Assembly (NCBI RefSeq): GCF_040954645.1
Contig: NC_092806.1
Coordinates: 72,294,141 to 72,358,140 of the forward strand
Length of the DNA: 64,000 nucleotides
Origin: Diabrotica undecimpunctata
Lineage: Eukaryota; Arthropoda; Insecta; Coleoptera; Chrysomelidae
Reading direction: 5' to 3'
The translations under genes were made by a program, and so were the position numbers. The notes under the pieces are model-generated. The model was not told where the DNA came from. It did no database searches and was given only the letters and a program-made list of their open reading frames with translations. Shown here piece by piece: positions 4,295 through 64,000 of the stretch (its first letter is position 1; each line of letters starts with the position of its first letter).

Positions 4295-4479
4295 CTCTCG
4301 CTATCATGGTCTGGAAAAATGTTAAGAAAGGAGGTTCCAAGGCAGTTAAGTGAGAAAGTGAAGAATAAGAAGAAAAATGAAAAAAAGTTGTCAAACGTAT
4401 TGGCATGTTCAATATTCTGGAAGGAAAAATTTTGGACTTCGATGATCTAAAAATTATTCAGCACCTCAACAAATATCAA

Positions 4480-17339: not shown

Positions 17340-18607
17340 TATGTGAAATTATGCATATAATTTCAGTTAATGAGGACTGTATTACATAGGGCTGGTTCAA
17401 ATAAATTAGGATATGCACAAAAAGGTATCGCACGACGTCTCAGCAGAACTGAATCTATAGTTTCGAATACTCTAAAAAAGTACCGCAAAACAGGAAATTT
17501 TGTACGAAGGCCTGGTCAAGGACGCCCAAGGTGCACAACCGCAATTGATGACCGTTTTTTGGTTCTTAATTCTACACGAAATCGTTCATTGATATCGATG
17601 CACCTCAGAAATGAGCTAATAAATGTTAGACAAGTTAATGTGAGTTCACAAACAGTTAGACAAAGATCAAAAGAAGCAAACTTAAAGCCCAGGCGCCCCG
17701 CCAAAGTTCCACGTCTTCTCCAAAATCATAAAGCTCGTTGTTTGGAATTTGCAAGAACACATATTTAGTGGAATATCGACAACTGGAAAAACGTTCTTTT
17801 CACGGATGAGACCAGAATCCTATTATGGAAGCCAGATGGTCAAAACTACGTCTACAGAAGAGTTGGAGAACGATTCGCAAGCTACAGTCTCGCCCAGATC
17901 GTTAATTTTGGAGTTGATAGCATAATTCTTTGGGAAGGTATTAGTTGAGAGGTACTTACCGTCCAAGTGATTGGACTAATGACTGGTGATTCTTACGTTT
18001 AAAACATCCTGCAAGATCATGTTTTGTCATATGTTGGTTACATTGAATATGAAAGATTCACTAGAAAGAAAATATTCAGATGAATATTTTGATTAGGTCC
18101 AAATTCGAAGATTGGATTGGCCACCGTTTAGCCCGGATTTAAATCCAGTAGAACACATGTGTGATCATCTTAAACGCAGCATACGACAAAGAAATCTCGT
18201 TCCAAATACGATAGAGCAGCTTCGGCTTGTTGCACAGGATGAATGGAATGCAATTTCCCAAGGATATGTCCAAAATTTACTTTCAAGACTGATGAGAAAA
18301 ATGCAAGCAGTAATAAGAGCTAGAGGGGGGAATACTTGTTACTGATCATGCACTTCTTTCAGTTAAAACGACTTGTTTAAGCAATTTAAATTATCATTTA
18401 AGTTTAGAGTAAAATAACCTTATTTACCTAATATTCAACATTTATTTTTTTCGCAATTTTCTCCGCATAAAAACTTAAAATTGTTCATTAAATATTGCTA
18501 AAATAAACTCTATTTTACAATAAACGACTTGATTGACCTTGACCAGAATTTATTTTCAAAAAACAAAAATTAGAAAATTCCAAAATATCCGATATTTTTG
18601 TCCATGA

Positions 18608-20978: not shown

Positions 20979-22199
20979 AAGGAAGTAAACGTTAAATATT
21001 GGGTTTGCAGCAATAAAAAATGAAACGTGTACTCTTTTAAATCTTTATTCCAAGCTTTCGGACATTGTTTATGTCCTTCATCAGGGAGCTACAAATGTGA
21101 TGAATAAATTGTTGGCGTTGGTATAATTAATTAAAAATTCACTACTTACAAACTTAATGAAGTTGTATCAACGAAGATGTATTATAATGTTGATAAAATT
21201 TATCACAGTCCCTCATCTTTTTTTAATATATAAAACCTATTTTTATGTTTAACAATTTAAAAAAATTAATGTACATCCAAAAACACTTAATTATTCTAAA
21301 TACATAAATGACATTATTCTGACAAAATTCTTTTAAATGTCAATTGATAAATTATTGTTTGTGTTATTATTGCATTTATCTAGTAGTAACAAATAGGAGA
21401 ACATTTCATTTAGATGACCAATATCCGTTCTATGATTCATTGCATTGTTATTTTGGCAAATGTAGGCTATTTCAAGAAAAAGTCTTTTGGTGATGTTACT
21501 TTCCTGTTCTACTACTTTGATGTTATTATAATCTATTTGATGCTCGTATTTTAATGTATGTTCGCCCAATGCACTTTTTTCAGGATGCAGTCTTTTATCT
21601 GACTTTTGGGATGTAATGCGGTCTTTAAGGCATCTTGATGTTTGACCATAGTATACTTGTTCACATGATCCGCACGGTATACAGTAAACAACATCCGTTA
21701 AAGACAAGAGTGCAAATTGGTCTTTAAGTTTAGAAAAAACTTTGTTAACTGTTAGTACCGTTTTATGTGGAATTTTGATATTATTAATTGATGAAAAAAT
21801 TCTACTTAGTTTCTGTCCAATGTTCTTAATGTATGAAAGAGATACATAGTATATCATTTATCCCTGTGCTTGGTAATGCTAATATTATGTCATCAACATA
21901 TTTTTTTATAAAATGTAATTTATAAGGTAGGACAAGGATGATGGTGTCAAGTATATGATTCATTACATAACAGGAAATTATTGGTGATATAGGGTTCCCC
22001 ATAGGTGTACCAAAAGTTTGTTTGTAAAATTTGTTGTTAAATGAAAAATAATTGTTTTCGAACAGAAAAGTTAACAGTTTGAAAAATGTGTCCTTATCAA
22101 TGTTACAATGTTGAGCAATAATCTCCCATTTATTACTAATGGCAAGTGTACATATATCTAGATAAACATTGCTAAATAAGGATACTACAAGTATTAATT
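20979..22199 (-). pseudogene. Penelope-like element, inverted partner copy (internally deleted)
   Basis: The minus strand carries a PLE tail, the GIY-YIG half (YVSLSYIKNIGQKLSRIFSS, VVYCIPCGSCEQVYYGQ, ending NNNLSIDI at 21333) and, upstream, part of the reverse transcriptase palm with KKYVDDIILAL. Compared with the plus-strand copy it lacks the segment equivalent to about 22690-23125, joined at GATATACT/TGTATCTC with short homology. It mirrors the plus copy from about 22355 to 23990 with few differences, so both probably arose in one event. Confidence 0.85.
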
Positions 22200-22214: not shown

Positions 22215-23642
22215 GCTAATTACTTAATAGATATTTTAACGAATGCATATAATTGTGATAATGAATACTATATTAAAGACTCATTTCAAGTTAATCAATT
22301 ATTTAATAACATACAATTGCCAGAAGGCTACGTGATTGCAAGCCTAGATGTAGTATCCTTATTTAGCAATGTTTATCTAGATATATGTACACTTGCCATT
22401 AGTAATAAATGGGAGATTATTGCTCAACATTGTAACATTGATAAGGACACATTTTTCAAACTGTTAACTTTTCTGTTCGAAAACAATTATTTTTCATTTA
22501 ACAACAAATTTTACAAACAAACTTTTGGTACACCTATGGGGAACCCTATATCACCAATAATTTCCTGTTATGTAATGGATCACATACTAGACACCATCAT
22601 CTTTGTCCTACCTTATAAATTACATTTTATAAAAAAATATGTTGATGACATAATATTAGCATTACCAAGCACAGGGATAAATGATATACTTTGGTATTTC
22701 AATAGTTACAACCCATACATTCAATTCACATTAGAATGTGAAGATACTACAGGTTCAGTACCTTTTTTAGATACCAAATTAATACTAAAAGGTACCCATT
22801 TACTAGTTGATTGGTATAGAAAACCTCTCAGTTCAGGCAGATATCTCAATTATTGGTCATACCATAAATATTCAATGAAACTTAATTTAGTTAAAGAAAT
22901 GAAAAATCGTGTCCTTAAAATCAGCGATACCGCTTTCCATACAAAAAATCTAAAAATCCTTTATAACCTATTCATTTAAAACTCATACCCAAGTATACTA
23001 CTAAAGAAAATTTTGTTTACCACTCCACAAAATTTAACTAGTCATTTAAGAAACGAAGAAAATCTGTCTGTATCACAAGATAGAATTGGACCTGTAGATC
23101 CTTTACCAAAACAAACTACAATTAGATATGTATCTCTTCCATACATTAAGGACATTGGACAGAAACTAAGTAGAATTTTTTCATTAATTAATAATATCAA
23201 AATTGCACATAAAACGGTACTAACAGTTAACAAAGTTTTTTCTAAACTTAAAGACCAATCCGCACTCTTGTCTTTAACGGATGTTGTTTACTGTATACCG
23301 TGCGGATCATGTGAACAAGTATACTATGGTCAAACATCAAGATGCCTTAAAGACCGCATTACATCCCACAAGTCAGATAATAGACTGCATCCTGAAAAAA
23401 GTGCATTGGGTGAACATACATTTAAAAATGGGCATCAAATAGATTGTAATAACATCAAAGTAGTAGAACAGGAAAGTAACATCACCAAAAGACTTTTTCT
23501 TGAAATGGCCTACATTTGCCAAAATAACAATGCAATGAATCATAGAACGGATATTGGTCATCTAAATGAAATGTTCTCCTATTTGTTACTACTAGATAAA
23601 TGCAATAATAACACAAACAATAATTTATCAATTGACATTTAA
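22215..23642 (+). pseudogene. Penelope-like reverse transcriptase with GIY-YIG endonuclease (one stop)
   Basis: One frame runs from about 22215 to 23642 with a single TAA at 22977-22979. The palm has ASLDVVSLFSNV (first Asp), TFGTPMGNPISP and KKYVDDIILAL (catalytic YVDD, 22638-22649), then VPFLDT and the typical DWYRKPLSSGRYLNY. After the stop comes the linker and VVYCIPCGSCEQVYYGQTSR, the GIY-YIG domain with its preceding CxxC, ending NNNLSIDI. About 475 codons remain of the usual 700-900; the N-terminal part is missing. The enzyme would copy its RNA at a nicked target. Apart from the one stop the sequence looks recently functional. Confidence 0.85.
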
Positions 23643-25716: not shown

Positions 25717-27925
25717 AGAACATGTAACTTTACATGTACAAGATGTAAGAGTATTAAGAAAAGATACATGTGGAAGCGACCATTACTTATTATAAGCTAA
25801 GATCACATTTGGAGTAGATAAACCTAAAGAAGAAAAAGAATGAAATGAACGGGAGAAACTGATACAGAAGAGGTATAACCTAATCAGCTTAGAAAAAGAA
25901 AACGTTAGAGAATTATACAGAAATAGAATAAATCAAAAGTTGGAAAATAAACAATTTAATAATAATGAAGAACATTACACTCACATAAAAATGTGTCTTC
26001 ATGGGGTAGCAATAGAAGCCATTGGATACCAAATCCAAAATCAAAGGAAACTTCCATATTGGTTTAACGAAGAAATAGAACAAGAAATAAATAAAAAAAG
26101 AGACCAATATCAAAAATTTTAAAATTCAAAGAATATAACAGATAAAATAGTCTACAAGGAGTTTCAAGCTAAAGTACGAAAAATGATATATCGGAAGAAA
26201 AATGAAGCATGGCAACAAAAGTGTAACATGATAAATTTACATCTAGGAAGACAAAGAAGCACAGAAAGTTGAAGAGTCTTAAAATCTTTAAGACAAGATA
26301 ATAATAGAGATATAGTGTCAACAATAACAATGGATGACAGGGATCAATATTTTAAAAAACTCCTAAGGGAAGATAGACCACAATTTAAAGACAGGAATGA
26401 AACACAAAATATAAATATTTTAACTTCGCCCATACGAATAACAACGAAAGAAGTGGAAGATGTATGTAGATCTCTAAAAAATAACAAAGCATTGGATCCA
26501 GGTAACATCCCTGCAGAGTTAATTAAACACGGTACAACCAAACTACATACAAGTTTAGCCAAAGTGTTCCAAAACTGTATTAATGAAATGACAACGCCAG
26601 TGGAGTGGAAGACATCATTCATATCCACTATACACAAAGAGGCAGAAGGGATGAATGTGACAATTACAAAGGCATTGCCGTCACAAACTCGGTTAGTAAA
26701 ATATACGGAAAAGTAATTAAAAACAGAATAGAAAGCGAATATAAAGACTTAGAGGCTGAGGAACAGGCAGGATTTAGGGCAGTTAGATCTACTCTTGACC
26801 ATTTGTTTTGCATTACACAGATTATTAAAAAGAAAATAGGCGTTAATCAAGAAGTACATTTATTGTATGTAGACCTACGAAAGGCTTATGATAGCGTACC
26901 ACATTATAAATTATGGGAAGCGTTAGAGAAAACAAACATGAGCACGAATTTAATATATGCCACGAAGAAACGGTACTCTAATGCTAACTCAAAGGTTAAG
27001 GTTGGAATATGATCTGTTAAGTGGATTCCAAATAAATAAAGGACTTAAGCAGGGCTGCTGTCTCTCCCCGACATTATTTAAAATTTGTCTAGAGCTCTAA
27101 AACTGTGGAAGCGCAAATGTAGAAATATGGGAATGCTGATTAGCAACAATAACATATACACTTTGTCATTTGCAGATGACCAACTAGTGATAACACAAGA
27201 TTATGAAGATATTGAGTATATGACTCGAAAATTAATCGAGGAGTATAAAAAATGGGGACTTGAAATTAATAGCCAAAAAACCGAGTATATGTGTATCGAT
27301 GGGAAAAAACAGGACCTCGTATTGGAAGATAGAGAAGTTATTAAACATTGCAACACATATAAATATTTAGGTATGTTCATTACAAAAGAAGGCAACGTAG
27401 ACGAAACAATTAGGGAGAAAAACAACCAAGCAAGAAAAGCAATTTCACTTCTCAATAGTATCCTTTGCGATCAATCAATCTCTAATAACAACAAACATAA
27501 GATATATAATACAATCATTAAAAGTATAATTACCTACAGTAGTAAAGTATGGCAAATAACGAAAAGATACAAGAGAAAACTTGATTTCTGGAGACGTTCA
27601 GCTGGAAAATCTAGACTAGAAAGAGTAACCAACAACGGAATAAGGGAAATTATAAAATTAAAACATACAATAGTAGACTATATTGGTACCCAACAACTCA
27701 GATGGTACGGTCATGTACAGAGAATGTCTGAAGAACGTCTCACAAAACAAGTCTTTATGTGGACCCCTCACGGTAAAAAAAAAGAGGAAGACCCCGCCTT
27801 AGTTGGAGAGAATGCATCAATAGAAAAATGAAAGAGAGAGACATAGAAGAAGACTTACGGATGAATCGAGAGGAGTGGCAATTGGGTATCGGAAGACGTA
27901 GGAGAACGTTTTAAACCGATCTATA
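25717..27925 (+). pseudogene. LINE, endonuclease end to C-terminus (FADDQ type)
   Basis: The longest copy of this family here. It starts inside the APE-type endonuclease (VRVLRKDTCGSDHYLL, the SDH box), continues through a basic linker, the start of the reverse transcriptase (NNKALDPGNIPAELIKHG), NYKGIAVTNSVSKIYGK, LEAEEQAGFRAVRSTLDH, LLYVDLRKAYDSVP (first Asp), LSFADDQLVITQD (27169-27183), KYLGMFITKEG, QLRWYGHVQRMSEERL and a basic end. Frame changes near 26640 and 27010-27090 and several stops show decay. The 3' non-coding end is interrupted by the mariner-type element and seems to resume at 30097. The 5' part of the endonuclease and any ORF1 are missing. Confidence 0.85.
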
Positions 27926-42413: not shown

Positions 42414-43901
42414 AGAGCAATCAAGACATTGAAGAACAAAAAAGCCAAAGGACCCGGAGGAATACTAAACGAACTAATTAAAAACGGAACGGAAAAGTTA
42501 TTCCGCATGCTACATAGAATGTTCGAAAGAGGACTAAATGGAGAAGAAATACCTGCGGAATGGACACAAGCATACATCACATCCATACATAAGAAAGGAA
42601 ACAGGAAAAAATGTGAAAACTATAGAGGAATTAGTATAATATCGTCGGTAGGTAAACTTTACGGGAAAACTATTAAGGAAAAACTAGAAACTGAAATAAT
42701 AGGAAAAATTGGAGAAGACCAAGCAGGGTTCACAGTAGGAAAATCATGCCTAGATCATACGTACACATTAGAACAACTGATAGAGAAGAAAATGGCAAAA
42801 GGTAGACCGGTCCATCTGGCGTTTGTTGATCTAAAGAAAGCATATGACTCAATACCTAGAGTCAAATTATGGGAAGCAATGAATGATCTCGGAATCCGAC
42901 AAACACTAATAAAAGCAGTTAAAGCACTATACAAAGAAAACAAAGTAGCTATTAAATGTGGAAATAAAGCCTACAATCCATTTAAGACGACAAAAGGACT
43001 TCTACAAGGCTGTGCTACGTCCCCTACTCCGTTTAAAATATTCTTGGAAAAGGCACTCAAACCATGGAGGAGAAAGTGCGAAGGAATGGGCATACCAGTA
43101 CGAGATGAATACCTATACACCTTAAGTTTTGCCGACGATCAAGTAGTCATCGCACAAGATGAAGAAGATCTCAGCTTTATGCTCAGAAAACTAGAAGAAG
43201 AATATTAAAACAACGGAATGGAAATAAACTTAGAGACAACCCAATACCTAACAACAGAAAACAAGGATATGAGAAACCTAGAGATAGACGAGGGAAGACA
43301 AATAAATGGAACAGATAAATTCAAGTATTTAGGAACCATAATATCGAACCAGGGAACAACAGAAGAAGATATAAACAACAGACTGAGACAAATAAGAAAC
43401 TGTATAAGACAACTAAACTCAGTGTTGTGGGATAAGAACATTACGATAAAGACAAAAAAGAGAATATATAATACCCTGACAAGAAGTATCCTGACATATG
43501 GGTCCGAAAACTGGACAATAAACAAGAGAAATAGAGGTAGAAATGGAGTTCCTGAGGAGAAGCTGTAGACTTACAAAAAGAGACAGAATTGAAAACGCAG
43601 AGATTAAGCGGAGAATGGGAGTGCAATCAGACATAATCGACTATATAGAGGAGAAGAGACTATCCTGGTATGGGCCACGTCAGAAGAGCGGACAGAGGAC
43701 GCTGGATCAAAATCACAGAATGGAGCCCGATTGGAAGAAGAAAGAGAGAAAGACCCCGAAGGTTATTCAGAGATGAAATCGACGAGGCTATGGAGAAAAG
43801 AACCCTGCGAGATGGAGACTGGAATGGCAGGAAAAATTGGAGAAAACGGTTGAGTGAAGGAAGACAGTGAAAACTGTGGAAATCCTTAGTAGTAGTAGTA
43901 G
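42414..43901 (+). mobile_element. 5'-truncated LINE with 13-bp target duplication and (TAG)n tail
   Basis: The direct repeat CATTCTAAATTAG occurs at 42401-42413 and 43902-43914 and brackets the insert. The insert ends in TTAGTAGTAGTAGTAG, the 3' tail. This defines the element 3' boundary precisely and shows target-primed insertion. It is 1488 bp and starts inside the reverse transcriptase. Confidence 0.92.
42429..43870 (+). pseudogene. LINE reverse transcriptase (FADDQ type), lightly damaged
   Basis: The main frame runs KNKKAKGPGGILNELIKNGT, NYRGISIISSVGKLYGK, GEDQAGFTVGKSCLDHTYTL, HLAFVDLKKAYDSIPRVKLW (first Asp), GLLQGCATSPTPFKIFLEKA and LSFADDQVVIAQDEEDL (43128-43142), to a TAA at 43206-43208. 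The same frame continues after it: NGMEINLETTQYLT, KYLGTIISNQGTTEEDINN, SILTYGSENWTINKRNRG. A frame shift near 43540 leads to LRRSCRLTKRDRIENAEIKR, and the C-terminus DEAMEKRTLRDGDWNGRK ends at 43870. One stop and two frame changes separate this from an intact reverse transcriptase, so it is one of the younger LINE copies in the window. Confidence 0.88.
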
Positions 43902-44151: not shown

Positions 44152-46126
44152 CATTACTATATTGCAGCAGTCAGTCTATCTTGTATTATATGTCTATGAG
44201 TTTTTGTAACAAAAATAACCTGAAATACATAAAAAATCCTCAGGTCCAAAATAACAAATGCCTGTATGGATATTAAACCCAAGAAACCATTTAACATCTT
44301 ATCGGAGGCTGCCAGGCATTTGGCGGAACTGACTGAGAAGGAATAATATTCCATTCCAGACATATCTTAAAACCTGCACCTTCTTTAATCCAATTATCTT
44401 CCTTAATATTAATATGTCCCTAATAGTATGCACTATACTCACAGACCAACCAGTGGTAAATAGAATCTCTACTAGTTATTAAAACAACAACTCTTATTGA
44501 TTTGATGATATCAAACAACCATAATCTGTATGATAAATATAACGAGAAAATGGCCAAGTATAGAGAAGATAATGGTAATGATCACTTCTATATATATAAG
44601 ACTTCAATAAAACCATGCAGAAAGCGATCTTAACACTCGCATGCTGAAGAATTTTTTTTGGGGCACAGGTCCCTTTTACTCTGACATACCAGGTCTCTCG
44701 AATATTTAAAAAGTCCCACCAAAGCTTAATCCTTTTGATATCATAAGTATCTGAGTAAATTATATACTTTTTTTAATGGCATTGACATTAGTCATTCATC
44801 CAGTTGCATTAGATTTCCTAATCAGGCAAATAAACAATCCTATGTTTAATAAAAAATTACCGGATAACTAATAGAAGAAGATACGATAAGCAAGCATACG
44901 GTGTCACTTCTTGCTTCTCATAAAGGGGCCTTTCAATACATTTTTAGTAGACAAACAAAACTGAACCACGGATAAGGTGTTATAAAATTATTTCTATACT
45001 TAGAGGGTATGAAAGTGGTATGGAATTAATCGGAATAATAATAACAATAATTTGCGTGAATTATCTATTATTGTTTTTTTGAGGTTTTTGGGCCGAAACT
45101 GATAATAGTGTAGGTGTCGTTAGAAAATAACTTCAAACTCGCTTTCAAATACAGTATTACCTAGATTATGATCTTTTTAACCATCATTTCACAAAATGGT
45201 GCCCGTCCGATATGTTATTGATTATATCACTAAAATATTATAAAAACAATAATTAAAAACGAGAAAATTTCGACGCATTATGTATAAAAGATAGACACTA
45301 GAAAACTAAACAAAATAAATGCGGTACCTACATAAAATATAAAATATTAAAAGGAACATTTAAATATGAAACAGATGTATATTTTGAGATAAAAAAGTAA
45401 CAGGAGAAGGATGAAGTGAATTAAAAAGTAATAACAAAAATTGTAATCCGATATTGTAATCTTTCATTGATGAAAAAATATTATAAGTAAGATCAAATAG
45501 TAATAAAATATTAAGATCAACAAAAACTTTAAAGTATATAAGTAAGCTTTTATTTCCTTATAATCATTTTGTCAGCATTTAACATTAAGGCAAATTTGAA
45601 GGTGAAATGTTAAAATTATTTTATATTATTTTAGTAATAATGAAATGTTAACGCCGGCAATTATAAACATACGTTGGGTGCTTTTTCATTAAATTTTGTT
45701 CCAGAAATTTAATTTCGGTTGTGAATTTTTTATTTTGAAACAGAGTACGTATATTTTATAAATTAAAATAAGCTTAAATTCACATCTAAATTACACATTT
45801 TACGGAATATGTAAAATAATGAAATTTGAGTATACCTACTCGTAAGTACTCACACTTCTTGCAACTAATTTTCCTAATGCCATTTTGCACTTGACAGAAA
45901 TAAGGGCTCCGGTCACTATCTCGGACAATTAACTGCAATGGATGCTTTAAGCTAAATCTTGTTTTCTACTTTACATAAAGTGTTTACTGTCAACAAAATA
46001 ACTGAGTTCTAATAATTTAGAGCTTAATAAATACCAACTAACAAATCAATATTTTACTCATTAAATACTACAAACAATATTTTAGTTCAAAAATTACGAA
46101 TTAATTAAATCAATTTAAAATTAAGG

Positions 46127-46130
<4 letters not shown>
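44152..46130. other. No recognised feature
   Basis: AT-rich. A short plus-strand reading at about 44266-44345 (DIKPKKPFNILSEAARHLAE) is compositionally protein-like but ends after some 30 residues and is not recognised. Nothing else is supported. Confidence 0.4.
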
Positions 46131-46175
<45 letters not shown>

Positions 46176-46205
46176 TGTATATATATGTATATATATATAT
46201 ATATA
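46131..46205. repeat. (TA)n array
   Basis: TA repeats with two CATATATGTATATATGTA interruptions, lying at the 3' end of the minus-strand RTE element. Confidence 0.95.
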
Positions 46206-46350
46206 CAGCCCTTGCTGTCCAATTTTGGACATAGGCCTCCTCTTCCTTCTTCCACATCTCTCTGTTGTAGGCAGTTGTATCCACTTCGGGCCTGCGTGTT
46301 TCTTCAAGTCATCTAACCATCGCATTTGTGGCCTTCCTCTTTTTCGTTTG
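46206..46350 (-). pseudogene. RTE LINE C-terminal end
   Basis: The minus strand reads RKRGRPQMRWLDDLKKHAGP, then in a shifted frame NREMWKKEEEAYVQNWTARA, ending at the (TA)n array. This is the GRPxxRWxDD ... YVQxW terminus of RTE-type LINEs. The upstream part of the protein is 4.1 kb away, beyond the gypsy element. Confidence 0.75.
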
Positions 46351-46354
46351 TAAC

Positions 46355-46543
46355 TGAAATGATAAAGCAAAACCTAGGATATAAGGTTTTAATCAACATA
46401 AATTGTACATATAATGTTAACAAAAACAATAGAAATTAATATGGCAGTGACAGTGACTTCTTTCAAACACTGACAGCATAAAGTTGCCTACAATATTAGA
46501 AGTCTACAGCCAAAGCAATACTAAGGAGGTTAATATCACATCA
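46355..46543 (-). repeat. 3' LTR
   Basis: 189 bp, matching the 5' LTR by eye. Its first three sense bases (TGA, at 46543-46541) serve as the stop codon of the Gag-Pol frame. A purine tract GTGGGAGAA lies directly upstream on the sense strand. Confidence 0.95.
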
Positions 46544-49500
46544 TTCTCCCACACTATAATCTTCCAAATACCGTGGTAAATGACGAATTCTTTTAGATCT
46601 TCTAGGTAGTGCTGAAGGAGGCGATAAGCTCTGTTCAGAACTCATTGGGGGTTCTTCAAGAAGTAATGAATCCGGTGGAGGGGGAGATGTAGATGTATCT
46701 GCCAGGGGCTGCATGTTTTGCGTGGTTGTATTGGATGAGGAATCATTAAGACTCGAATGTAACTCATGTGGGTCTTCTACGAACACTGATTCTTGACCTG
46801 GTATATCTAGTATTTCCCCTTCACCTCGTCCACATGGAGCCAGATGACGATTAGACACTGTGGTCTCCCGTCCGTCTTTCAGTTTAACAAAAGAGTATTC
46901 AGGATTTGCCTCTATTACCTCCACTTCCTCTACGATAGGCTGGTACTTGTTCTTCCGATCGAACCTTTTCATCAAGACATGCCCAGATTCTGCTAGCCAT
47001 GACGGTATTGTATTCCCATTTGGAGATCGACGTGTGTGCACGAACATCCTTTCATGCGGCGTACAGTTAGTTGCGGTACACAACAGTGAACGAATGGAAT
47101 GCAGCACGACAGGTAGGTATTGTTCCCAATTCTCAATAGGTGCTTCATGTGATTCACAGGCCAGTTGAATAGCTTTCCAGACAGTAGAATTCAACTTCTC
47201 CACTTGACCATTTCCTTGAGGATTATAAGCAGTAGTTCTACTTGTAGCGATTCCTCTGGCGTTGAGAAACTCTTTGATTTCAGCTGACAGAAATTGAGCC
47301 CCCCTATCCGAATGAATGTATGCAGGCATTCCAAACATCATGAATAAGTTATTTAAATTCTTGATTACTGTTTTGGCACTAATGTCACTGCATGGGAAAG
47401 CAAATGGGAATCTGGAATACTCATCTATTACCGTAAGAATATAATGATTATTGGTATTCGAAGGCACTGGTCCTTTAAAGTCAATACTAAGGCGTTCGAA
47501 GGGAGATGTGGCTTTTATAAGCTTTGGAAAAAGCCCCTCATTTTTAAAGTATCTCGGCTTAATTTTAGCACATACCCCACAGTCACGAGTCATAGTCTTG
47601 ACTTCATTGAGAGAGAAAGGCAAATTCTTTGATTTTATCCAATGAAACATACGTGTTACCCCTGGATGACAAAGTGCATTGTGAAGTGACTTGAGTTTTG
47701 ATGCACCTGCCGCCGTGGTAGTAGCACAAGAGCAGATGCGCGATAAAGCATCCGCTGCTTGGTTATCTTTTCCTGGTCGATACACAATGTCATATTTATA
47801 AGGTGCCAATTCAAGTCGCCATCTTTGTATTTTCTCATTTTTAATCTTGCTGGAATGCTTCGTGTTGAACATAAATGTTACAGACTTTTGATCAGTAATG
47901 ATTGTGAAAGGCTTTCCTATAAGAAAATGGCGCCACTTCTTTAGAGATTCAACAATAGCATATGCTTCTTTCTCCACAGCAGAATGGTTCAGCTCACTAG
48001 AGTTAAGTGATCTTGAAAAGAAAGCAACGGGTCTGGAATCCTGACTCAAGGTAGCAGCAATTGAGTGTTCTGAAGCATCAGTTTCAACAACAAATGGCAT
48101 ATTTTCGTTGATAGCGTGAACAGATGACTTTGCAACTATAGATTTCAGATTTTCAAAACAAGATAAAGCATCTTCGTTCAATGGAAAATTGTTGACATGA
48201 GCTAATGTGTGGACCCTTTCGGAAAATTTGGGAATCCATTTTGAATAATGGGCAAACATACCTAATACCCTTCTGAGAGATGCAGTGTCATTCGGTGGAG
48301 GCATCTTTAATAAGGGTTGTAGTCTGCTAGCATCGGGCTTTATGACATGGTTTGGTCCTATAGTATAACCAAGTAAGTTTATTACTGTTTGATTGAATTT
48401 GCTCTTGGTTTTGTTTAGTGTCAAGCCATATTTGTCTGTGGCCTTCAGAAAGTTCTCAAGATTTTTGTCATGCTCTACCTTCGTCTTACCACAAACAGTT
48501 ATATCATCAAGATAGGCATATGTCCCTTCAAGGTTTTCTGTGCGTATGAGCCAGTCGATTGTTCTTTGGAAACTGGCTACACCATTGGTAACACCAAACG
48601 GAATGCGACAAAATTGGTACAGTTTCCCAGCGGCTTCAAAAGCTGTGTACATCTTTTCATGTGGAAGTATTGGAACCTGATGGTATGCACTTTGGAAATC
48701 TATTGCACTAAAGACAGTAAATTGTGATACATTGGAAACCATTTCCTCGATATTTGGCAGTGGATAGGCATCAAGTTGAGTGAATCGATTAATTGTTTGA
48801 GAATAATCAATGACAAGCCGCTTCTTGTGAGTTTCGTTTTTGGTGATAAGCACTTGCGCTCTCCAAGGGGACTGACTTTCTTCAATAATGCCATCATTTA
48901 AAAGCTTCTTTACCTCATTTTTAATAAAAATCTGATCTTCAGCACTATGCCTGCGCGATTTTACTGCGATAGGTTTACAATTTGAAGTCAGGTTACAAAA
49001 TAAAGGAACTGCAGGTACTGAGGCTTCAACTACACTACATACCTTGAATACTTCTTTAGGTCCTCCAAATTCAAACTCTAGACTCGAGTGGTTAGATAGA
49101 ACATCATGACCAATTATAATATCAGCACAGAGATTTTTAACTATAAGTAAATTAATGTTGTCGTAGGAGTGGCCACCAATTTTAATATTTTGAGTAGTCA
49201 CACCTTTAACTTCAGAGGTGTGTGATAATGAGGCCATAGAAACAGTCTGAATACAAGGCTTCCTAGGGAGTTTGCACAGGTTAGCAAAGTCTTCATTAAT
49301 AAAACTGACAGAGCTACCAGTATCTATAAGGGCATCAGCACGAAGACCTTTTATAGATGCAGGCACTATAGCTTTTTTCAATGAAGCAGGATTAGCAGCA
49401 ATAATGCAGGCTGTGCAGTTTTCATAGCCTTCAAATACGTTGGCAGATGCACTAGTGCTCTTGGAGCGGCAAACCTTTGCAAAGTGTCCCTTTTTATTAC

Positions 49501-50275
49501 AGGATTTGCAAATGGATTCTCGAGCGGGACAGTTCTTCCTTGAATGTATTGGCCCACCACAGAAAAAACATTTGTGTCCTGACCTAGAAGAGTTAGTAGA
49601 GTTGGTAGCAGCTGTCACAGTGACACATTCAGAATTTGTTGGAGAGCTCTGTGACTCAAATTGATAGTTACCAGGTAGCGCACTAAGTGTCGAATGTTGG
49701 TTTGAATAAACCTGAGAGTTGAGTTCTGCCATTTCCATTGAAATAGCTATATTATAAGTTTCTTCTAAAGTTAGCGTTAAACTCTCTAACAGTCTCGATC
49801 GTATCTTTGTGGATGTCATTCCAGCGATAAAAGCTCCACGGATTGTATCATTTTTATTAGTATCAGCATCTACAGCAGTAAAATTGCAGTCTTTTGCTAA
49901 CTGTTTTAAAGATTGCATGTAAGAATCGATAGACTCATCTGCCTGTTGTCGTCTAGTGGTTAGTATGTGACGAGCATGAATAGTATTGTTTGGTTTGATG
50001 TATATTTTGTCAAGAGTTTGAATGGATTCGTTGTAAGTGTTACAATCACTTATATATGTATATACTCGTGGCGAAATATGATTTATTAACAGTTGTAGCT
50101 TAGTATCATTAATATCTAGGGGTGGTACAGCAGCACTATCAGCAGAAACAGCGGGAGTGACAATATGGGCAGCTAAAAAGTTCATAAAAGTTCTTTTCCA
50201 ATGGTCCCATTCCTTTGCTGTTGATTTCACAGATGGATCCCCGTCGAACCTCTCGGGTCTCAGATACTTCTCCAT
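46541..50275 (-). CDS. Gag-Pol polyprotein (1244 residues), Ty3/gypsy, mag/K02A2.6-like
   Basis: One frame encodes all retrotransposon proteins. Gag: residues 1-230, helical, starting MEKYLRPERFDGDPSV. Two zinc knuckles: C236-C239-H244-C249 and C256-C259-H264-C269. Protease: ALIDTGSSVSF with DTG at 318-320. Reverse transcriptase: about 450-640 with AIDFQSAYHQVP (Asp 526) and YLDD at 588-591. RNase H: ETDAS (Asp 733), Glu 770, Asp 795. Integrase: HHCC finger (H865, H870, C899, C902) and the D-D-E triad D932, D990, E1026 (35 residues between the last two). The C-terminus is Pro/Ser-rich then basic. The ATG at 50275-50273 begins only 15 bases after the 5' LTR. All catalytic residues are present. 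Having no Gag/Pol frameshift is unusual and recalls Tf1. Confidence 0.97.
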   Translation of the reverse strand: MEKYLRPERFDGDPSVKSTAKEWDHWKRTFMNFLAAHIVTPAVSADSAAVPPLDINDTKLQLLINHISPRVYTYISDCNTYNESIQTLDKIYIKPNNTIHARHILTTRRQQADESIDSYMQSLKQLAKDCNFTAVDADTNKNDTIRGAFIAGMTSTKIRSRLLESLTLTLEETYNIAISMEMAELNSQVYSNQHSTLSALPGNYQFESQSSPTNSECVTVTAATNSTNSSRSGHKCFFCGGPIHSRKNCPARESICKSCNKKGHFAKVCRSKSTSASANVFEGYENCTACIIAANPASLKKAIVPASIKGLRADALIDTGSSVSFINEDFANLCKLPRKPCIQTVSMASLSHTSEVKGVTTQNIKIGGHSYDNINLLIVKNLCADIIIGHDVLSNHSSLEFEFGGPKEVFKVCSVVEASVPAVPLFCNLTSNCKPIAVKSRRHSAEDQIFIKNEVKKLLNDGIIEESQSPWRAQVLITKNETHKKRLVIDYSQTINRFTQLDAYPLPNIEEMVSNVSQFTVFSAIDFQSAYHQVPILPHEKMYTAFEAAGKLYQFCRIPFGVTNGVASFQRTIDWLIRTENLEGTYAYLDDITVCGKTKVEHDKNLENFLKATDKYGLTLNKTKSKFNQTVINLLGYTIGPNHVIKPDASRLQPLLKMPPPNDTASLRRVLGMFAHYSKWIPKFSERVHTLAHVNNFPLNEDALSCFENLKSIVAKSSVHAINENMPFVVETDASEHSIAATLSQDSRPVAFFSRSLNSSELNHSAVEKEAYAIVESLKKWRHFLIGKPFTIITDQKSVTFMFNTKHSSKIKNEKIQRWRLELAPYKYDIVYRPGKDNQAADALSRICSCATTTAAGASKLKSLHNALCHPGVTRMFHWIKSKNLPFSLNEVKTMTRDCGVCAKIKPRYFKNEGLFPKLIKATSPFERLSIDFKGPVPSNTNNHYILTVIDEYSRFPFAFPCSDISAKTVIKNLNNLFMMFGMPAYIHSDRGAQFLSAEIKEFLNARGIATSRTTAYNPQGNGQVEKLNSTVWKAIQLACESHEAPIENWEQYLPVVLHSIRSLLCTATNCTPHERMFVHTRRSPNGNTIPSWLAESGHVLMKRFDRKNKYQPIVEEVEVIEANPEYSFVKLKDGRETTVSNRHLAPCGRGEGEILDIPGQESVFVEDPHELHSSLNDSSSNTTTQNMQPLADTSTSPPPPDSLLLEEPPMSSEQSLSPPSALPRRSKRIRHLPRYLEDYSVGE

Positions 50276-50290
50276 TTATGTTGATTAAAT
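50274..50290 (-). promoter_or_regulatory. Candidate self-primer binding site
   Basis: Directly after the 5' LTR the sense strand reads ATTTAATCAACATAAAT, with no TGG start of a tRNA site. Sixteen of these bases (50274-50289) are perfectly complementary to 50324-50339 inside the LTR, so a transcript could fold on itself with a 34-nt loop. The site overlaps the start codon. Self-priming is known for Tf1/sushi-type elements; here it is inferred from complementarity only. Confidence 0.6.
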
Positions 50291-50479
50291 TGAAATGATA
50301 AAGCAAAACCTAGGATATAAGGTTTTAATCAACATAAATTGTACATATAATGTTAACAAAAACAATAGAAATTAATATGGCAGTGACAGTGACTTCTTTC
50401 AAACACTGACAGCATAAAGTTGCCTACAATATTAGAAGTCTACAGCCAAAGCAATACTAAGGAGGTTAATATCACATCA
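50291..50479 (-). repeat. 5' LTR
   Basis: 189 bp, TGATGTGATATT to TTATCATTTCA on the sense strand. A CATATTAAT box around 50370 could serve as TATA element, some 30-40 bases before the segment complementary to the primer site. Confidence 0.95.
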
Positions 50480-50484
50480 GTAAC

Positions 50485-51860
50485 TATATGGTCTCCAGTG
50501 TATCATCATATTATTCCATCTGTCGTCTTTCTGTCTTATGATATGTCCAGCGAACTTCCACTTAAGTTTTGCTATCTGCGTTAATACATCGGCCACTTTT
50601 GTTTAGTTGCGGATCCAAGTATTTCTTTTCTTGTATGATAGCCTGATGCTCAGCATTTGCCTTTCCATGGCTCTTTGGGTCTTTGCTATTTTTTCCATGT
50701 TTTCCTTTGTAAACCCCCAAGTTTGAGAACCGTAAGAACCCGTGAGAACAGGAAGTATACATTGGTTGAAGATTCTTGTTTTTAAATATTGGGGGTATTT
50801 TCTATTTTTTAGTATATAGGAAAGTTTTCCGAAAGATACCCAAGACTACCGTATTCTTCTCTTAAGTTCTCCGGTCTGATTTTCTTTATTTAATTTAATT
50901 AGTTGTCCCAAATATACATATTCTTTTACTTGTTCTATAGTTGTTTGTGCAATTGTAATTATTAATTCTTCTGGTTGATTGGTCATAATTTTCGTTTTAT
51001 TATAATTCATTTGTAGACCTATTTTTGTTGATTCGCTATTTAATTCATCCATCATATTTTGCAATTCTTCCCTTTTATCTGTTATTAATACAATGTCGTC
51101 TGCATATCTTAAGTGATTCAAGTATTGGCCATTTATGTTAATACCCCGTTTTTCACATTGTAATTTCCTCATAACGTCTTCCAAAAGCTGGATTGAATAG
51201 TTTGGGTGATATAGTGTCACCCTGTCTGACTCCTCGCCGTATCTTAATGAGCTCCGTTTGTTCAACTATTTTGATGGATGTTGTTGCTTGATCATATACA
51301 TTGGAAATTAAGTCCGTGTATCTATAGTCTATTCTCCCATTTTGTAAAGACTTCTTTACTGCCCAATGTTTAACCTTATCGAATGCTTTTTCAAAGTCTA
51401 CAAATGCCATATACATTGGGATTTGATATTCGTTGGCCTTTTCAATTAATATTTTTATCGTAAGCAGATGATAGCTTGTACTGAATCCTTTTCTAAATCC
51501 GGCTTGCTCTCTTGACTGGTAATTATCTAACTTAGTTGTTAATCTGTTTGTTAGTAGTTTAGCTAACAGTTTGTACATTACATTCAGTAGCGTTATGGGC
51601 CTATAGTTTTTCAGATCTTTTCTATCGCCTTTCTTAAACAATAATAGTGTTATTGCCTCGTTTCATGTGGTGGGTATTTGTTTTGTGTTCAATATTTTAT
51701 TCATTAGTACATAAAGGACTTCCACTGTAGTTTTACCCCCATTTTTTAGCATTTTCACAGTTATTCCATCTTTCCCAGGAGATTTGTTATTCTTCATTTC
51801 TTTGAGTGCCTTTTTTATTTCATTTTTACTGATTTCTGGTTGTAGGTCAGAGTTAACGTT
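50485..51860 (-). pseudogene. RTE LINE reverse transcriptase
   Basis: From 51860 on the minus strand: NVNSDLQPEISKNEIKKALK, NNKSPGKDGITVKMLKNGG, LLFKKGDRKDLKNYRPITLL, SREQAGFRKGFSTSYHLL, YMAFVDFEKAFDKVKHWAV (first Asp), IRRGVRQGDTISPKLFNPA, then after a frameshift LRYADDIVLITDKREELQNM (catalytic YADD), IGLQMNYNKTKIMTNQP and YVYLGQLIKLN. Towards 50500 the C-terminal part decays into KLKWKFAGHIIRQKDDRWNN, continuing at 46350. The motif order and GFSTxxHxLTxKxLIEKANEY texture are those of RTE/BovB-type LINEs. Frameshifts near 51170 and 50850 make it inactive. Confidence 0.85.
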
Positions 51861-54257: not shown

Positions 54258-55972
54258 ATCGCATCAAGGCACAAGCTTGGAAAACATTAAAGCAATTTAG
54301 GAAAAACGAGAAAAATGAAGACAACATTTCTCTCATACAGTTAAATGAATGGGAAGAATATTATACGCAACTGCTGAAAGAGGATAGAGTAGAGTACAGA
54401 TGAAAAAAGATAAGGGAATTAATAGACAACAGAGACGAAAGACAGGAAATCCCTATAATAACATTATCTGAATTGACGGAAACCTTAAAAGAGGTTAAAA
54501 ACGAAAAAGCCGCAGGGCCTGGAGACATTCCCATAGAGCTGGTTAAATATGGGCTGACTGCACTTTTAGAATTAATAGTAGACCTTTTCAATAAATGTAT
54601 GTGTAGAGACCAGGAAATTCCTAAAGATTGGAATAAATCTTATATAAGCTCCATATATAAGAAAGGGAATAAAAGAGGTATAATTATAGAGGTATTAGTG
54701 TGCCGAGCTCTGTGGGCCGGTTGTACGGTAGAATATTAAAGAAGAGGGTTGAAAGACAGATACAAGATATTGAAGAACAAAGCGGCTTTCGTACCGGGAG
54801 ATCCTGCCTTGATAATATATTTATCCTACTACAAATAATTGAAAAGCGTGTCGAAAGAAGTAGAGAGACCCATTTGGTATTTATAGACCTTGAGAAAGCA
54901 TATGATAGTGTCCAGTTAAAGAAAATGTTTGAGGTCCTCGAAAGGTCCGGTTTGAATTCGACGTATATCCGAGCGATATATAAATTGTACGAAAATGCAG
55001 TTAGTTGTGTAAAAATTGGAACCAGAACCTCAAATGAATTTAAAGTCACTAAAGGCCTAAAGCAAGGATGCTGTTTGTCACCGACACTCTTTAAAATATA
55101 AGTCCAAGAAGCATTGAGGAATTGGAGAAATAAATGTAGATTTATGGGCATCGAAGTGGGACAAGAAACTCTGTATACATTGTTGTTTGCAGATGATCAG
55201 GTGGTGGTTGCAACCGATGAGGAAGATATAAATTATATGAATCGAAAATTATTTGAGGAATATGCCAAATGGGGGCTTACTGTAAACATAAGCAAAACAG
55301 AATATTTAAAAATTGGAGGAAATACCACAGATCTGAGGCTTGAAAACGCAGTCATAAAAGGCTGCAACCAGTATAAATATCTAGGAAGCATCATATCAAC
55401 AGATGGCAGAGTTAAGATAGATGTACAAAACCAAATAACCCAAGGGAAAAAATGCATCCGAATACTGAATTCATTACTGTGGTCTAATAAAATAAAGATG
55501 CATACCAAACTTCGCGTATACAGAGCAATTGTAGAACCAATTACCACATATGGTGCCGAATGTTGGACGATGACAAAGAATGAACGAGATAAAGTAGACG
55601 TTGTGGAAATGGATTATCTTAGAAGGTCATGTCGAGTATCGAAAATGGAAAGAATCAGGAATGAGGAAATACGAAACCGTACAGGAATTAGAGATACTGT
55701 TTCAGATAGAATACAAGGAAGGCAATTACAATGGTATGGTCACGTGATGAGAATGGAGGAGGAGCGGTGGCCAAAGAAAGCCTTAATGTATGTTCCGCCA
55801 GAAAGAGGAAAAAGGGGAAGACCACCAAATTCCTGGAGAAGAGAAATTACAAAAAAAATGCAATCTAGAGGCTTAGAAGAGGGAGATTGGAGAGATAGGA
55901 AAAGATGGAGGCTGAAATGCGGGAAGCGGCAATCGCCGTAGGACCCCGTTATATGATGATGATGATGATGAC
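54258..55972 (+). pseudogene. LINE reverse transcriptase (FADDQ type), well preserved, (ATG)n tail
   Basis: It begins in the linker before the reverse transcriptase (RIKAQAWKTLKQFRKNEKNE, LNEWEEYYTQLLKED) and continues LKEVKNEKAAGPGDIPIELV, YISSIYKKGNK, a short frame slip, RGISVPSSVGRLYGRILKKR, EEQSGFRTGRSCLDNIFI, HLVFIDLEKAYDSVQLKKMF (first Asp), KGLKQGCCLSPTLFKI, one stop, then LLFADDQVVVATDEEDI (55186-55200), KYLGSIISTDGRV, EPITTYGAECWTMTKNERDK, LQWYGHVMRMEEERWPKKAL and WRDRKRWRLKCGKRQSP. An ATGATGATGATGATGATGA tail follows at 55954. Three defects (stop at 54396-54398, slip near 54680, stop at 55099) separate it from an intact frame. It is the best-kept copy of this family from the palm to the end. 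Confidence 0.88.
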
Positions 55973-60600: not shown

Positions 60601-60637
60601 TTTGGCGGGGACAAAAACGTTAACGAAAAGAAACAAC

Positions 60638-62077
60638 ATGTCGACCACAAGGAGTCAAAGCAAAATGCAAGAAAGGAAGGAGGATAACAGAGAAGAGGAA
60701 ACAATTGTTGAAGAAGGATCGGATAATGAAGGAAATGTTACAATAGTTGAGGAGAAAAAAGAATTATCAGGAATAGAGAAAATATTACAACTAATGCAAA
60801 TACAGACACAAACAATAGAGAAAAACCAAAATGAAACATCAAAGAAAATGGATACAATGGATAGAAATCAACAAGAAACAAAACAAACAATAGAACTAAA
60901 TAACAGAAATATAGAGCAGCGTTTGGAAAACTATGAACAAAAATTAGAAGAAAATGATAGAAAAATGGAAAAGCGTTTGGACAAATATGAAAATGAGGTA
61001 AAAGTCTGTTTAGAAAAAGTCAGAGAAGAAACAGAGAGGAAACTAGAGATGCAGAGAGAAGAAATAGAAACTAAAATGAAAGATATTAAGACTGTACAGA
61101 AAAAGGAATTAGAATAGTTAGAAACAAAATTTGAAATGGCTTTACAAGAAGACAAGAAAGAAATAGAAAAACAAATTGAGGATATCAGAAAACAACGAGA
61201 GATGGGAGACAGGAGAGAAGTACTCATCCAAAGTCCGGGTGACATAAAAATACAGTTTGGCGGGGATATTCGGAAAACACACCCAGTACCGTTTGTTAAA
61301 AATTTGAAAACCAAATTACAACATATTAGATATTTTGACGATTGCAAAGAAACAATTAGAAACCATTTGAAAGAAGGAGCAGCGTTATGGTATGAAAGCA
61401 AGGAAGATGAGTTTGAAAATTGGACAGATTTTGAAAATAAATTTCTCAACTATTTCTGGGGGAAAAATAAACAGAGAGAAATCAACCAAGAGCTACAGAA
61501 TGGAAAATATCACGAAAAAATGGGAATATCTGAAGAAAGATATGCTTTGCAGATATATAACAATTCAAAATATCTAGAATAAATATATTCTACCGAACAG
61601 CTGGTAGAAATGATCAGCAGACATTTTGAGGAAACCTTGGAAGATCACGTGATTTTGAGAAACTATCAAGATATTGATAGTTTGTGCCAATTCCTTCAAT
61701 TAAAAGAAGCGAAAAGAAAAGAAATGAGAAATAGAAGACAACATGACCAATATAATGGACCGGAAAGAAGGTATTCATCAAATTATGACCAGAGAAACCG
61801 ACATCCCAGATCAACAAACGAATATAGGCCGAGAAATTACAATAATTACAATAGACAACAAAATTACGATAACCGGAATGATACACAAAATAGAACAAAT
61901 GAAAATCACAACAGGAATAGAGATGCACAAAATCCTCCGAATAGGAATACGAACGAACAAAGGGACGATAGAAATAATCAGAGATTCCAACGACAAAACA
62001 GAAGAGAGATGAATCATGTGGCAATAGAAAAGGAGGAAGAAGAAGTATTCAATGAATCCAGACAGGATTTTCAATAA
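60638..62077 (+). pseudogene. Gag of a Ty3/gypsy element, with two in-frame stops
   Basis: From the ATG at 60638 (MSTTRSQSKMQERKEDN) one frame runs to 62077, broken only by TAG at 61115-61117 and TAA at 61580-61582. The first third is acidic, then a long heptad-rich coiled coil (60760-61200). A Gag core follows (IQFGGDIRKTHPVPFVKNLK, EGAALWYESKEDEFENW, FENKFLNYFW). The C-terminal 120 residues are very rich in Asn, Arg and Gln and have no zinc knuckle, so RNA binding probably rests on the basic tail. The position upstream of Pol and the -1 overlap fit a Gag gene. The stops most likely inactivate this copy. Confidence 0.8.
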
Positions 62078-64000
62078 GGCATCCACTAAACAAAAGTAAA
62101 AAACTCTCCGGTATATTTTGTCACCCGAGAGAGTTTATACAGTTGGCGGGAAACGAAAAACAAAATTCTAATTCCAGTCTAATTTTTTTAGATGCATTTA
62201 TAAAACATAAAGCGATTAAAATTCTGATTGATTCTGGATCGGAAATTTCGTTAATCAATAAAAAACTAGTAAAAGAATTAAATATGGACAGATTTGTGTA
62301 TAAGATTCCGAGGGTTGCTTTAGTGGGTGCAAATAATAAAAAATTGACGACAGTAAACGAAGGTTTAGGAGTACGGATCAGAGTGGGAGACCAATTCTAT
62401 ATTATGCAATGTGTGGTGATCGAAGATCTAAATCATGATATGATAGCGGGAATTGATGAATTGAGTGAAAAACATATCACCATCAATTTTTCGGAAAATC
62501 AACTGGAAATCAGAGCAGAACCAGACAACATAGAAGAAGAAAAGGAAACAGATAGGAGAAAATTTTCTGAAAGGATAAATGGACAAGAAAAACATAAAGA
62601 AATCAATATGACGGTAGAGGATAAATCGAAAGCTCAAGAAAAAAATCAATCCGAAGAGGAAAAGAGAATAAAAAAAAAGAAGAAGAGTTCGAAAAGAAAG
62701 CAGGAAAAAAAGGAAGTTATAAGCAGAAAAATGGAAGGAGCCGAAACATGGTGCTCGGAATACCAGATAGAAATTAATGATAAAGAAAAAATAGAAGAAG
62801 AAATAACGGAAGAGGACAGAGAAGAAATGGCAATTATGGACGAGAATCCAGAATTTTGTGAAGAAGTAATACGGACAGTGAACACATGTGAACAAACTGA
62901 GGATGAAAGAAAAATAATATGTGGAGAAAACATGGAGAAGGAAATAGAGAAGATTTTAGAAAATTATGGAGATCTTATTAATGAAGAAAGCCGAGTGGCT
63001 AAAAATTATGAACATTCTTTTAAAGTTAAAAACTTAGAAAATTTTAAATCGAAAACATATCCAATCCCGTATAAATACAGGCAAAGCGTCGGACAGGAAA
63101 TTGAAAATATGATCAAAGACAAGGTGATCGAAAGATGTGACTCTCCATATATCAACCCGATAGTATGCGTAAAAAAATCAAATGGTGATTTGCGATTATG
63201 TTTAGATGCAAGAAACATTAATTCGCACACAATCGCGCAATACGAAGCGCCTTTGAACATAGAAGCCATTTTTGGACGAATCACAGGATCACACATTTTC
63301 TCCAAAATCGATTTGAAACACAGTTTTTGGTTAATACCTTTGGCAGAAAAGTGTCGAAATTATACCGCTTTTTCTATCGACGGAGTGGTGTACCGATTTA
63401 GGGTAGTACCATTTGGACTACAAAGTGCATGCGCTGCTTTGGTTCGCGCATTACACACAATTTTAAATAGGCATGGAGAATTTGTTGTACATTACATAGA
63501 TGATTTATTAATTTTCTCACCGGATATAACAAGCCATCTACGACATATTCATACTGTTCTCGAAGAACTTGATCAAGCCGGATTAAAATTAAATATTCAA
63601 AAGTGTCAGTTTTTCCAAAAAGAGGTATTGTATTTAGGATTCAAATTAGACACAAAAGGGATTAGTCTTGCAGAAGATAGAATTGAAGTCATAAACAACT
63701 ACCCTAGGCCAACCAATTTAAAAACTTTGCGGGGATTTTTAGGAATGGTAAACTATTTCAAAAAGCTGATACCAGACCTCAGTACAAAAGAAATACCGCT
63801 AATAGCATTACTTAAGAAAAATGTCAGATGGAAATGGGGAACGGAACAAGAAATCGCTTTCAAAAATTTAAAAGGAGCGTTTTCCACAGCTGTAAGAGTG
63901 CACCACCCAAGATATGAGCAACCTTTCATTCTCAGGACCGATGCTTCCATAAAAAAATTTGCAGGGGTGTTATCACAGATACAAGACGATATAGAGGTGC
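62056..64000 (+). CDS. Pol of a Ty3/gypsy element (partial, runs off the window)
   Basis: The frame is open from about 62056 to the window end and lies -1 relative to Gag, overlapping it by about 22 bases, as if made by ribosomal frameshifting. No classical slippery heptamer is evident. Protease: ILIDSGSEISLIN (DSG, 62230-62238). A Lys/Glu-rich linker follows (62520-62960). Reverse transcriptase: YPIPYKYRQSVGQEIENMIK, PYINPIVCVKKSNGDLRLCL, FSKIDLKHSFWLIPL (first Asp), FRVVPFGLQSA and HYIDDLLIFSPD (catalytic YIDD), then LRGFLGMVNYFKKLIP. RNase H begins with LRTDASIKKFAGVLSQ. Integrase would follow outside. No stop is seen, so Pol is intact as far as visible although Gag is broken. Confidence 0.9.
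   Translation, partial: MQTGFSIRHPLNKSKKLSGIFCHPREFIQLAGNEKQNSNSSLIFLDAFIKHKAIKILIDSGSEISLINKKLVKELNMDRFVYKIPRVALVGANNKKLTTVNEGLGVRIRVGDQFYIMQCVVIEDLNHDMIAGIDELSEKHITINFSENQLEIRAEPDNIEEEKETDRRKFSERINGQEKHKEINMTVEDKSKAQEKNQSEEEKRIKKKKKSSKRKQEKKEVISRKMEGAETWCSEYQIEINDKEKIEEEITEEDREEMAIMDENPEFCEEVIRTVNTCEQTEDERKIICGENMEKEIEKILENYGDLINEESRVAKNYEHSFKVKNLENFKSKTYPIPYKYRQSVGQEIENMIKDKVIERCDSPYINPIVCVKKSNGDLRLCLDARNINSHTIAQYEAPLNIEAIFGRITGSHIFSKIDLKHSFWLIPLAEKCRNYTAFSIDGVVYRFRVVPFGLQSACAALVRALHTILNRHGEFVVHYIDDLLIFSPDITSHLRHIHTVLEELDQAGLKLNIQKCQFFQKEVLYLGFKLDTKGISLAEDRIEVINNYPRPTNLKTLRGFLGMVNYFKKLIPDLSTKEIPLIALLKKNVRWKWGTEQEIAFKNLKGAFSTAVRVHHPRYEQPFILRTDASIKKFAGVLSQIQDDIEV

Follow-up and report, generated by a model that had tools for sequence, protein, structure and literature searches.

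How does a retrotransposon start reverse transcription when no site for a host tRNA lies directly beside its 5′ long terminal repeat (LTR)? The question is raised by a compact, intact gypsy-type LTR retrotransposon on the minus strand of a 64,000-nucleotide (nt) stretch of the Diabrotica undecimpunctata genome (NC_092806.1, positions 72,294,141 to 72,358,140; hereafter the window), where the element runs from position 50479 to 46355. A sequence-only reading of the window had called the element intact, which its identical LTRs, its GTTAC target duplication and its one Gag-Pol frame of 1244 amino acids bear out, and had proposed that it primes itself. The best explanation of the observations assembled here is probably the same: the RNA of the element is predicted, from its sequence and from modelled folds, to prime its own reverse transcription by means of an arm in its LTR, and not by means of a host tRNA.

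Complementary arms beside and within the 5′ LTR

Past the 5′ LTR the sense strand reads ATTTAATCAACATAAATGG and, after a spacer of a single nucleotide (A50290), the 16 nt from 50289 to 50274 are perfectly complementary to 50339-50324 within the LTR. The sequence-only reading had reported this match and had given the start of the sense strand as ATTTAATC, which includes the unpaired spacer A, the helix beginning one base later. When complements were restricted to those starting 0-5 nt past the LTR, a length of 16 nt was reached by none of 20,000 shuffles of the window element, and when the first 30 nt past the LTR were compared with the LTR the longest perfect complement was likewise 16 nt, against a maximum of 13 nt in 3000 dinucleotide shuffles. 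A second copy of the arm is present in the 3′ LTR, as had also been stated. The trinucleotide TGG marks the 3′ end of the tRNA at primer sites, and the statement that no such site directly follows the LTR proved right, since 16 nt separate the LTR end from the first TGG. No tRNA gene was found within the 64-kb window.

The sequence-only reading had proposed to fold the first 80 nt of the RNA: an 80-nt RNA starting at the arm folds into the helix with a predicted energy of -17.4 kcal/mol (z -3.47), a value equalled by none of 200 shuffles. In the predicted folds the mean pair probability of the window helix was 0.84 when the RNA started at the arm and 0.86 when it started 68 nt upstream, and over all five of the five leader folds calculated for three elements (the window element and the relatives L001 and L002, described below) it ranged from 0.84 to 0.96, the 13-base pair (bp) part of the helix being the one counted in L002.

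The helix in related elements

A protein search returned 678 related proteins, and the hosts named among the best 120 of these are Lepidoptera, a leaf beetle, a damselfly, an aphid, an isopod (a record flagged as unverified contamination) and a whipworm. When prokaryote genome contigs were searched with a 37-protein alignment, 26 stretches were obtained, of which two, L001 and L002, were confirmed, with amino-acid identities to the window element of 51% and 49% respectively; both had been picked up by their integrase peptides and not by their LTRs. Their contigs are filed as prokaryote metagenome-assembled genomes (MAG), look like permuted animal-type gypsy elements and are evidently eukaryotic contaminants.

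In L001 the LTR ends in CTACA and is followed by A and then by TTTAATCAACAATA, the LTR arm being TATTGTTGATTAAA. The resulting helix of 14 perfect bp has the same one-nucleotide A spacer as that of the window element, and was matched by 1 of 20,000 shuffles. The core GTTGATTAAA/TTTAATCAAC is common to both elements, with the 10-nt site core TTTAATCAAC directly past the LTR in each. Pairs 1-11 and 14 are identical in L001 and the window element, whilst pairs 12 and 13 have changed on both sides (A-T/T-A and T-A/A-T) with pairing kept; in the alignment of the two elements 93.8% of cells pair, a figure that drops to 25-45% if the partner is shifted by 1-3 columns. A predicted hairpin, GCCT...AGGT, follows the L001 arm in the same place as the ACC...GGT hairpin of the window element. 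The arms of L002 are unrelated in sequence: TAATGTAATAAAA and GTAGTATT in its LTR pair with TTTTATTACATTA and AATACTAC past the LTR, forming a bipartite helix of 8 + 13 bp between the LTR and the first 23 nt beyond it. Shuffling gave a two-part duplex as good in 4 of 1000 cases and a whole fold as good in none of 200. The first TGG lies 29 nt from the LTR end in L001 and 60 nt in L002, where the LTR is 112 nt long and a length of 111 nt was used for the first-TGG offsets.

An operational rule for self-primers asks for a complement of 10 bp or more whose start lies 0-5 bp from the LTR (PMC6317226), and complements of this kind are present in the window element and in L001. The self-priming interpretation of the sequence-only reading is supported by these relatives, in both of which the arms have changed together. 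The covariation test that it had proposed for genomic copies came out favourably in these relatives, as regards the two pairs of L001 and the separate arms of L002, although the count itself is weak, as set out below.

A single control gypsy element, L003, had a longest restricted complement of 6 nt, reached by 7603 of 20,000 shuffles, with its LTR end set by eye and 400 nt taken as the LTR. The L003 record (NZ_CP087956.1, positions 1-5332), catalogued as a plasmid of Wolbachia, resembles a gypsy element with protease, reverse transcriptase (RT), RNase H, integrase and LTR-like sequence, and is probably derived from a moth host. A search of plasmids gave 21 records, and the best among the 10 matches listed was a gypsy-like element in a Wolbachia record, at 32.5% identity, which served as the control L003; two Bacillus records (L004 and L005) took no further part in the comparison. 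In viral contigs a single-protein query found no relative, the 37-protein alignment gave six stretches and an RT-region alignment of 10 rows gave 13 stretches, none confirmed in either case, and the hairpin searched as a DNA pattern gave no matches. Phages, and E. coli genomes searched with the LTR and leader DNA, yielded no match.

The relatives were placed in a quick-type tree of 121 rows, using 117 of the 120 listed proteins and omitting P0011 and P0014 (removed by hand as irregular gene models) and P0015 (best match of <500 residues). L003, represented by just the RNase H/integrase piece, has a long and unsure branch. L001 groups with L002 as its sister inside a subclade of 20 rows (support 99), and the window element belongs to a separate subclade of 68 rows (support 83). 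The helix arrangement therefore is, as judged from these sequences, either old in this clade or repeatedly arisen, and it probably goes back to the ancestor of both subclades.

Predicted priming and competing explanations

The primer junction sets the LTR end. Since the site lies where a primer must sit, the arm is taken as a self-primer, as in Tf1, and the following course is predicted. Transcription would start at or upstream of 50339, and the arm would pair with the site, in a helix that would include the A and T of the gag ATG. Cleavage by RNase H, or by a different nuclease, may then follow after A50324, where the helix meets the small hairpin, leaving a 3′ OH at A50324 beside the U5 end that could be extended into minus-strand strong-stop DNA; this DNA would carry one extra base at the LTR end, the complement of A50290. 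Because such a cut would give a usable 3′ end for any length of upstream RNA, a transcript start upstream of the arm would be tolerable, but a start downstream of it would not. The minimum free energy (MFE) folds predict the central helix and an adjacent U5 hairpin.

Several observations weigh against self-priming, and the main weakness concerns the transcript start. The sequence TATATGT lies at position 131 of the window LTR and the arm at positions 141-156, and if TATATGT is a TATA box it would start the RNA some 25-30 nt on, at the end of the arm or beyond it; TATAATG at LTR position 58 of L002, if used, would similarly drop the outer arm of that element. Initiator-like TCAGTG/TCACTG motifs occur upstream of the arm at positions 71, 88 and 94 of the window LTR and at 101 (TCAGTG) in L001, whilst weaker initiator-like motifs occur downstream of it (window 182, L001 163); L002 has no initiator-like motif on either side. 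Promoter motifs, read from sequence, are thus in conflict as to whether the arm lies at the 5′ end of the RNA. The flanking duplexes of the Tf1 'pretzel' were not seen in the MFE folds, no search having been aimed at them.

The relatives also supply points of this kind. L001 has lost pairs 15 and 16, the covariation amounts to two pairs in two sequences, a count reached by 116 of 500 shuffles, and the whole-leader fold of L001 is unremarkable (z -1.47, 15 of 200 shuffles). In L002 the LTR-adjacent 8 bp, taken alone, are within chance (2142 of 20,000 shuffles) and below the 10-bp rule, and the 13-nt part was reached by 10 of 3000 shuffles, again with 111 nt taken as the LTR. The LTR borders of L001 and L002 rest on TG...CA alone, because each contig has a single LTR. 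Duplex energy, tried as a measure instead of match length, was a poor one: it gave a weaker signal, reached by 31, 29 and 4 of 1000 shuffles (the 4 being for L002), and internal 30-mers often bound the LTR better (40 of 369, 109 of 331 and 42 of 296 in the three elements).

An alternative is that the helix is a regulatory RNA structure, which conceals the poly(A) signal of the 5′ copy together with part of the gag AUG, and that another RNA acts as the primer. An A[AT]TAAA hexamer does lie inside the arm in all three elements (ATTAAA in the window element and L001, AATAAA in L002). Neither the LTR of the window element nor that of L002 has another such hexamer; the LTR of L001 also has AATAAA at position 7. 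In the window element the hexamer is unpaired with a probability of 0.01 for the 5′ copy versus 0.22 for the 3′ copy. That contrast is modest, the 3′ copy being mostly paired too, and a purely regulatory helix leaves unexplained both why the site starts 0-1 nt past the LTR, where the 3′ end of a primer must lie, and why no TGG site is found beside the LTR, so that we regard this account as unlikely. Hiding of the poly(A) signal and self-priming could nonetheless coexist: because the final six bases of the arm are the only A[AT]TAAA of the window LTR, the same helix may also mask the signal in the 5′ copy and leave the 3′ copy usable. Were a host RNA to prime at TTTAATCAAC..., for example an internal piece (half) of a tRNA, the LTR match would be secondary or accidental. 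Half-tRNA primers are known in other LTR elements (PMC6317226), and the 10-nt site core common to the window element and L001 is what a fixed host primer predicts; yet the L001 site differs at two paired positions at which its own LTR arm differs to match, the L002 site is unrelated and still matches its own LTR, which a host primer would not maintain, and a 16-nt self-match was never reached by the shuffles. Priming of this kind seems to us distinctly improbable.

Chance complementarity without function, in AT-rich DNA, is a further explanation: the arms are AT-rich, and the LTR-adjacent 8 bp of L002 and the covariation count are each within chance. With 0 and 1 of 20,000 shuffles as good as the window element and L001, respectively, and with the same LTR offset recurring in separate subclades, we consider coincidence very unlikely. 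Least credible of all is a standard tRNA pairing through the TGG of the start-codon region (ATGGAG; candidate site TGGAGAAGTATC). The TGG stands at an offset of 16 nt in the window element, and the protein starts with M[ED], maybe encoded by ATGGA, in 80 of the best 120 of the 678 relatives (with M[ED][KR] in 66 of these 120), but the first TGG is found much further from the LTR in L001 and L002, at the offsets given above, and, because the primer junction sets the LTR end, an offset of 16 nt misfits the observed end.

Element structure, neighbours and comparison with known systems

The two LTRs of the window element, each of 189 nt and with 0 differences, begin with TG and end with CA (TGATGTGATA...TATCATTTCA). 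The gag ATG (50275-50273) lies 15 nt past the 5′ LTR, and the frame closes at a TGA that consists of nucleotides 1-3 of the 3′ LTR. Pfam matches in Gag-Pol comprise an aspartic protease, a reverse transcriptase, an RNase H and an integrase core, two CCHC-type motifs were recognized by eye, and the nearest solved structure by sequence is that of Ty3. The order protease-RT-RNase H-integrase, the LTRs and the short target duplication are those of Ty3/gypsy elements (Metaviridae). Since the LTRs are identical and the frame is intact, a recent insertion is suggested. When the flanks were joined with one GTTAC and the element removed, an open frame ran across the site (...HWRPYSYKRKRGRPQMRWLDD...), and the insertion therefore appears to lie within the 3′ portion of an open reading frame (ORF) like that of a non-LTR retrotransposon (50480-51641 and 46110-46349, by eye). 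A protein of Diabrotica undecimpunctata gives a match in three main blocks, with identities of 90, 97 and 95%, as would be expected of a host that is Diabrotica or closely related to it. The coordinates of the features are collected in the table.

Table. Features of the gypsy-type element and its insertion site (positions within the window)
Feature	Position	Strand	Remarks
5′ LTR, 189 nt, TG...CA	50291..50479	-	same as 3′ LTR throughout; GTTAC-flanked
3′ LTR, 189 nt	46355..46543	-	first 3 bases form the gag-pol stop TGA
Target site duplication GTTAC, 5′ side	50480..50484	-	
Target site duplication GTTAC, 3′ side	46350..46354	-	
Gag-Pol, single intact frame, 1244 amino acids	46541..50275	-	
Predicted self-primer binding site TTTAATCAACATAAAT	50274..50289	-	16-nt complement; takes in AT of the gag ATG
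Predicted self-primer arm ATTTATGTTGATTAAA inside 5′ LTR	50324..50339	-	ends 33 nt before the LTR end
Same arm in 3′ LTR, without adjoining binding site	46388..46403	-	
Small hairpin ACC...GGT directly after the arm	50308..50323	-	predicted folds
ATTAAA, only A[AT]TAAA hexamer of the window LTR	50324..50329	-	3′ end of the arm
Putative polypurine tract GGGAGAA	46544..46550	-	read by eye; directly before 3′ LTR

No second copy of the LTR was found within the 64-kb window, and comparison of the Gag-Pol protein with the window gave one further stretch, 27% identical. This RT stretch is part of what is perhaps a second gypsy-like element near the window end (60602-62077 and 63040-63978, plus strand), which also includes a piece resembling gag, whose match to the Arc capsid is weak and below the Pfam cut-off. 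Elsewhere in the window, a piece of a Tc1/mariner-type transposase (Pfam HTH_Tnp_Tc3_2) lies at 17370-17768 (+). At 21333-21857 (-), 22317-22979 (+) and 23013-23642 (+) are two very similar ORFs on opposite strands (...YYGQTSRCLKDRITS...), one of them adjoining an RT ORF; the YYGQTSRCLKDRITS ORFs are GIY-YIG-like by eye, have no Pfam match and look Penelope-type. RT ORFs in separate pieces at 26315-27831, 42429-43208 and 54700-55941 (all +) look like one type of non-LTR retrotransposon (...SFADDQVV...).

Tentatively, and with slightly more doubt than belief, we extend the reading to the clade as a whole: a large, arthropod-rich group of mag-like gypsy elements may use its own LTR for priming, independently of the Tf1/sushi chromoviruses, with a self-primer that ends in a poly(A) hexamer, so that one hairpin would serve both as primer and in silencing the 5′ poly(A) signal, and almost no untranslated leader would be needed. 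If this is true of the insect mag-like clade, the ability to do without host tRNA evolved on more than one occasion or dates back further than has been supposed; hairpin priming has been proposed to precede tRNA priming (PMC3601003). Elements without a tRNA site would also be predicted to escape defences based on tRNA fragments, such as those reported against mammalian endogenous retroviruses (PMC7472051). For annotation, a pipeline that searches next to the LTR for a tRNA-matching primer-binding site (PBS) would come away without one in intact elements of this type.

The element resembles the Mag lineage (clades A, B and C; SURL and the mag-like elements of Culex) in being a metazoan gypsy element with a short LTR in a group with one or two frames. 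Membership of that lineage is likely, the label coming from the name of one close relative (P0010, 'K02A2.6-like') together with the lack of a chromodomain match, and not from a tree that includes Mag references. LTRs of Mag C have the termini TGTNATRT...AYANAACA (PMC3601003); the window LTR starts with TGATGTGATAT, as fixed by the target duplication and with the Mag C motif 3 nt in, and ends with TCATTTCA, and that of L001 starts with TGTCATAA and ends with TCTCTACA. Culex Mag-like elements have LTRs of 119-304 nt and target duplications mostly of 5 nt, and their thirteen families are reported to have a PBS for tRNA-Leu or tRNA-Ser, with a single case of tRNA-Arg (PMC3286476), whilst the locust mag-like elements Boyu and Kokol are assigned sites for tRNA-Met and tRNA-Ser, respectively (PMC3391268). 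Unlike those of Culex, the window element has no tRNA-type site directly after its LTR. No report of self-priming in Mag or insect elements was found among the titles and abstract beginnings of the matches listed from open-licence literature, and what is predicted here is a known mechanism in an animal lineage for which that literature gave no such report. Outside the chromoviruses, self-priming has also been predicted from LTR complementarity in the TAR lineage (Houba, Osr-1; PMC6317226), which, unlike the window element, consists of plant Ty1/copia elements, another superfamily.

Amongst gypsy elements, self-priming has been described for the Tf1/sushi group and for Tcn1 relatives in mosses and club-mosses (PMC6317226, PMC10085805, PMC4600332), the group being one of Ty3/gypsy chromoviruses that comprises Tf1, Tf2, Tj1, sushi-ichi and Tcn1. 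Like these, the window element has beside its 5′ LTR a site complementary to a segment of its own LTR and not to a tRNA (16 nt, offset 1), and like Tf1 and Tf2 it has one frame (PMC10085805, PMC4600332). It departs from the group in that its arm contains a poly(A) hexamer and is placed at the RNA 5′ end by prediction. The arm of Tf1 is 11 nt long, as compared with 16 nt here, and its two flanking duplexes have no counterpart in our predicted folds. Because the 23 Pfam families with a match in at least one of the 37 members scanned (E 0.01) include no chromodomain (37 of 37 without), the element is not filed in Tf1/sushi. By analogy, then, it is an element that would work like Tf1 but stands outside the Tf1/sushi group.

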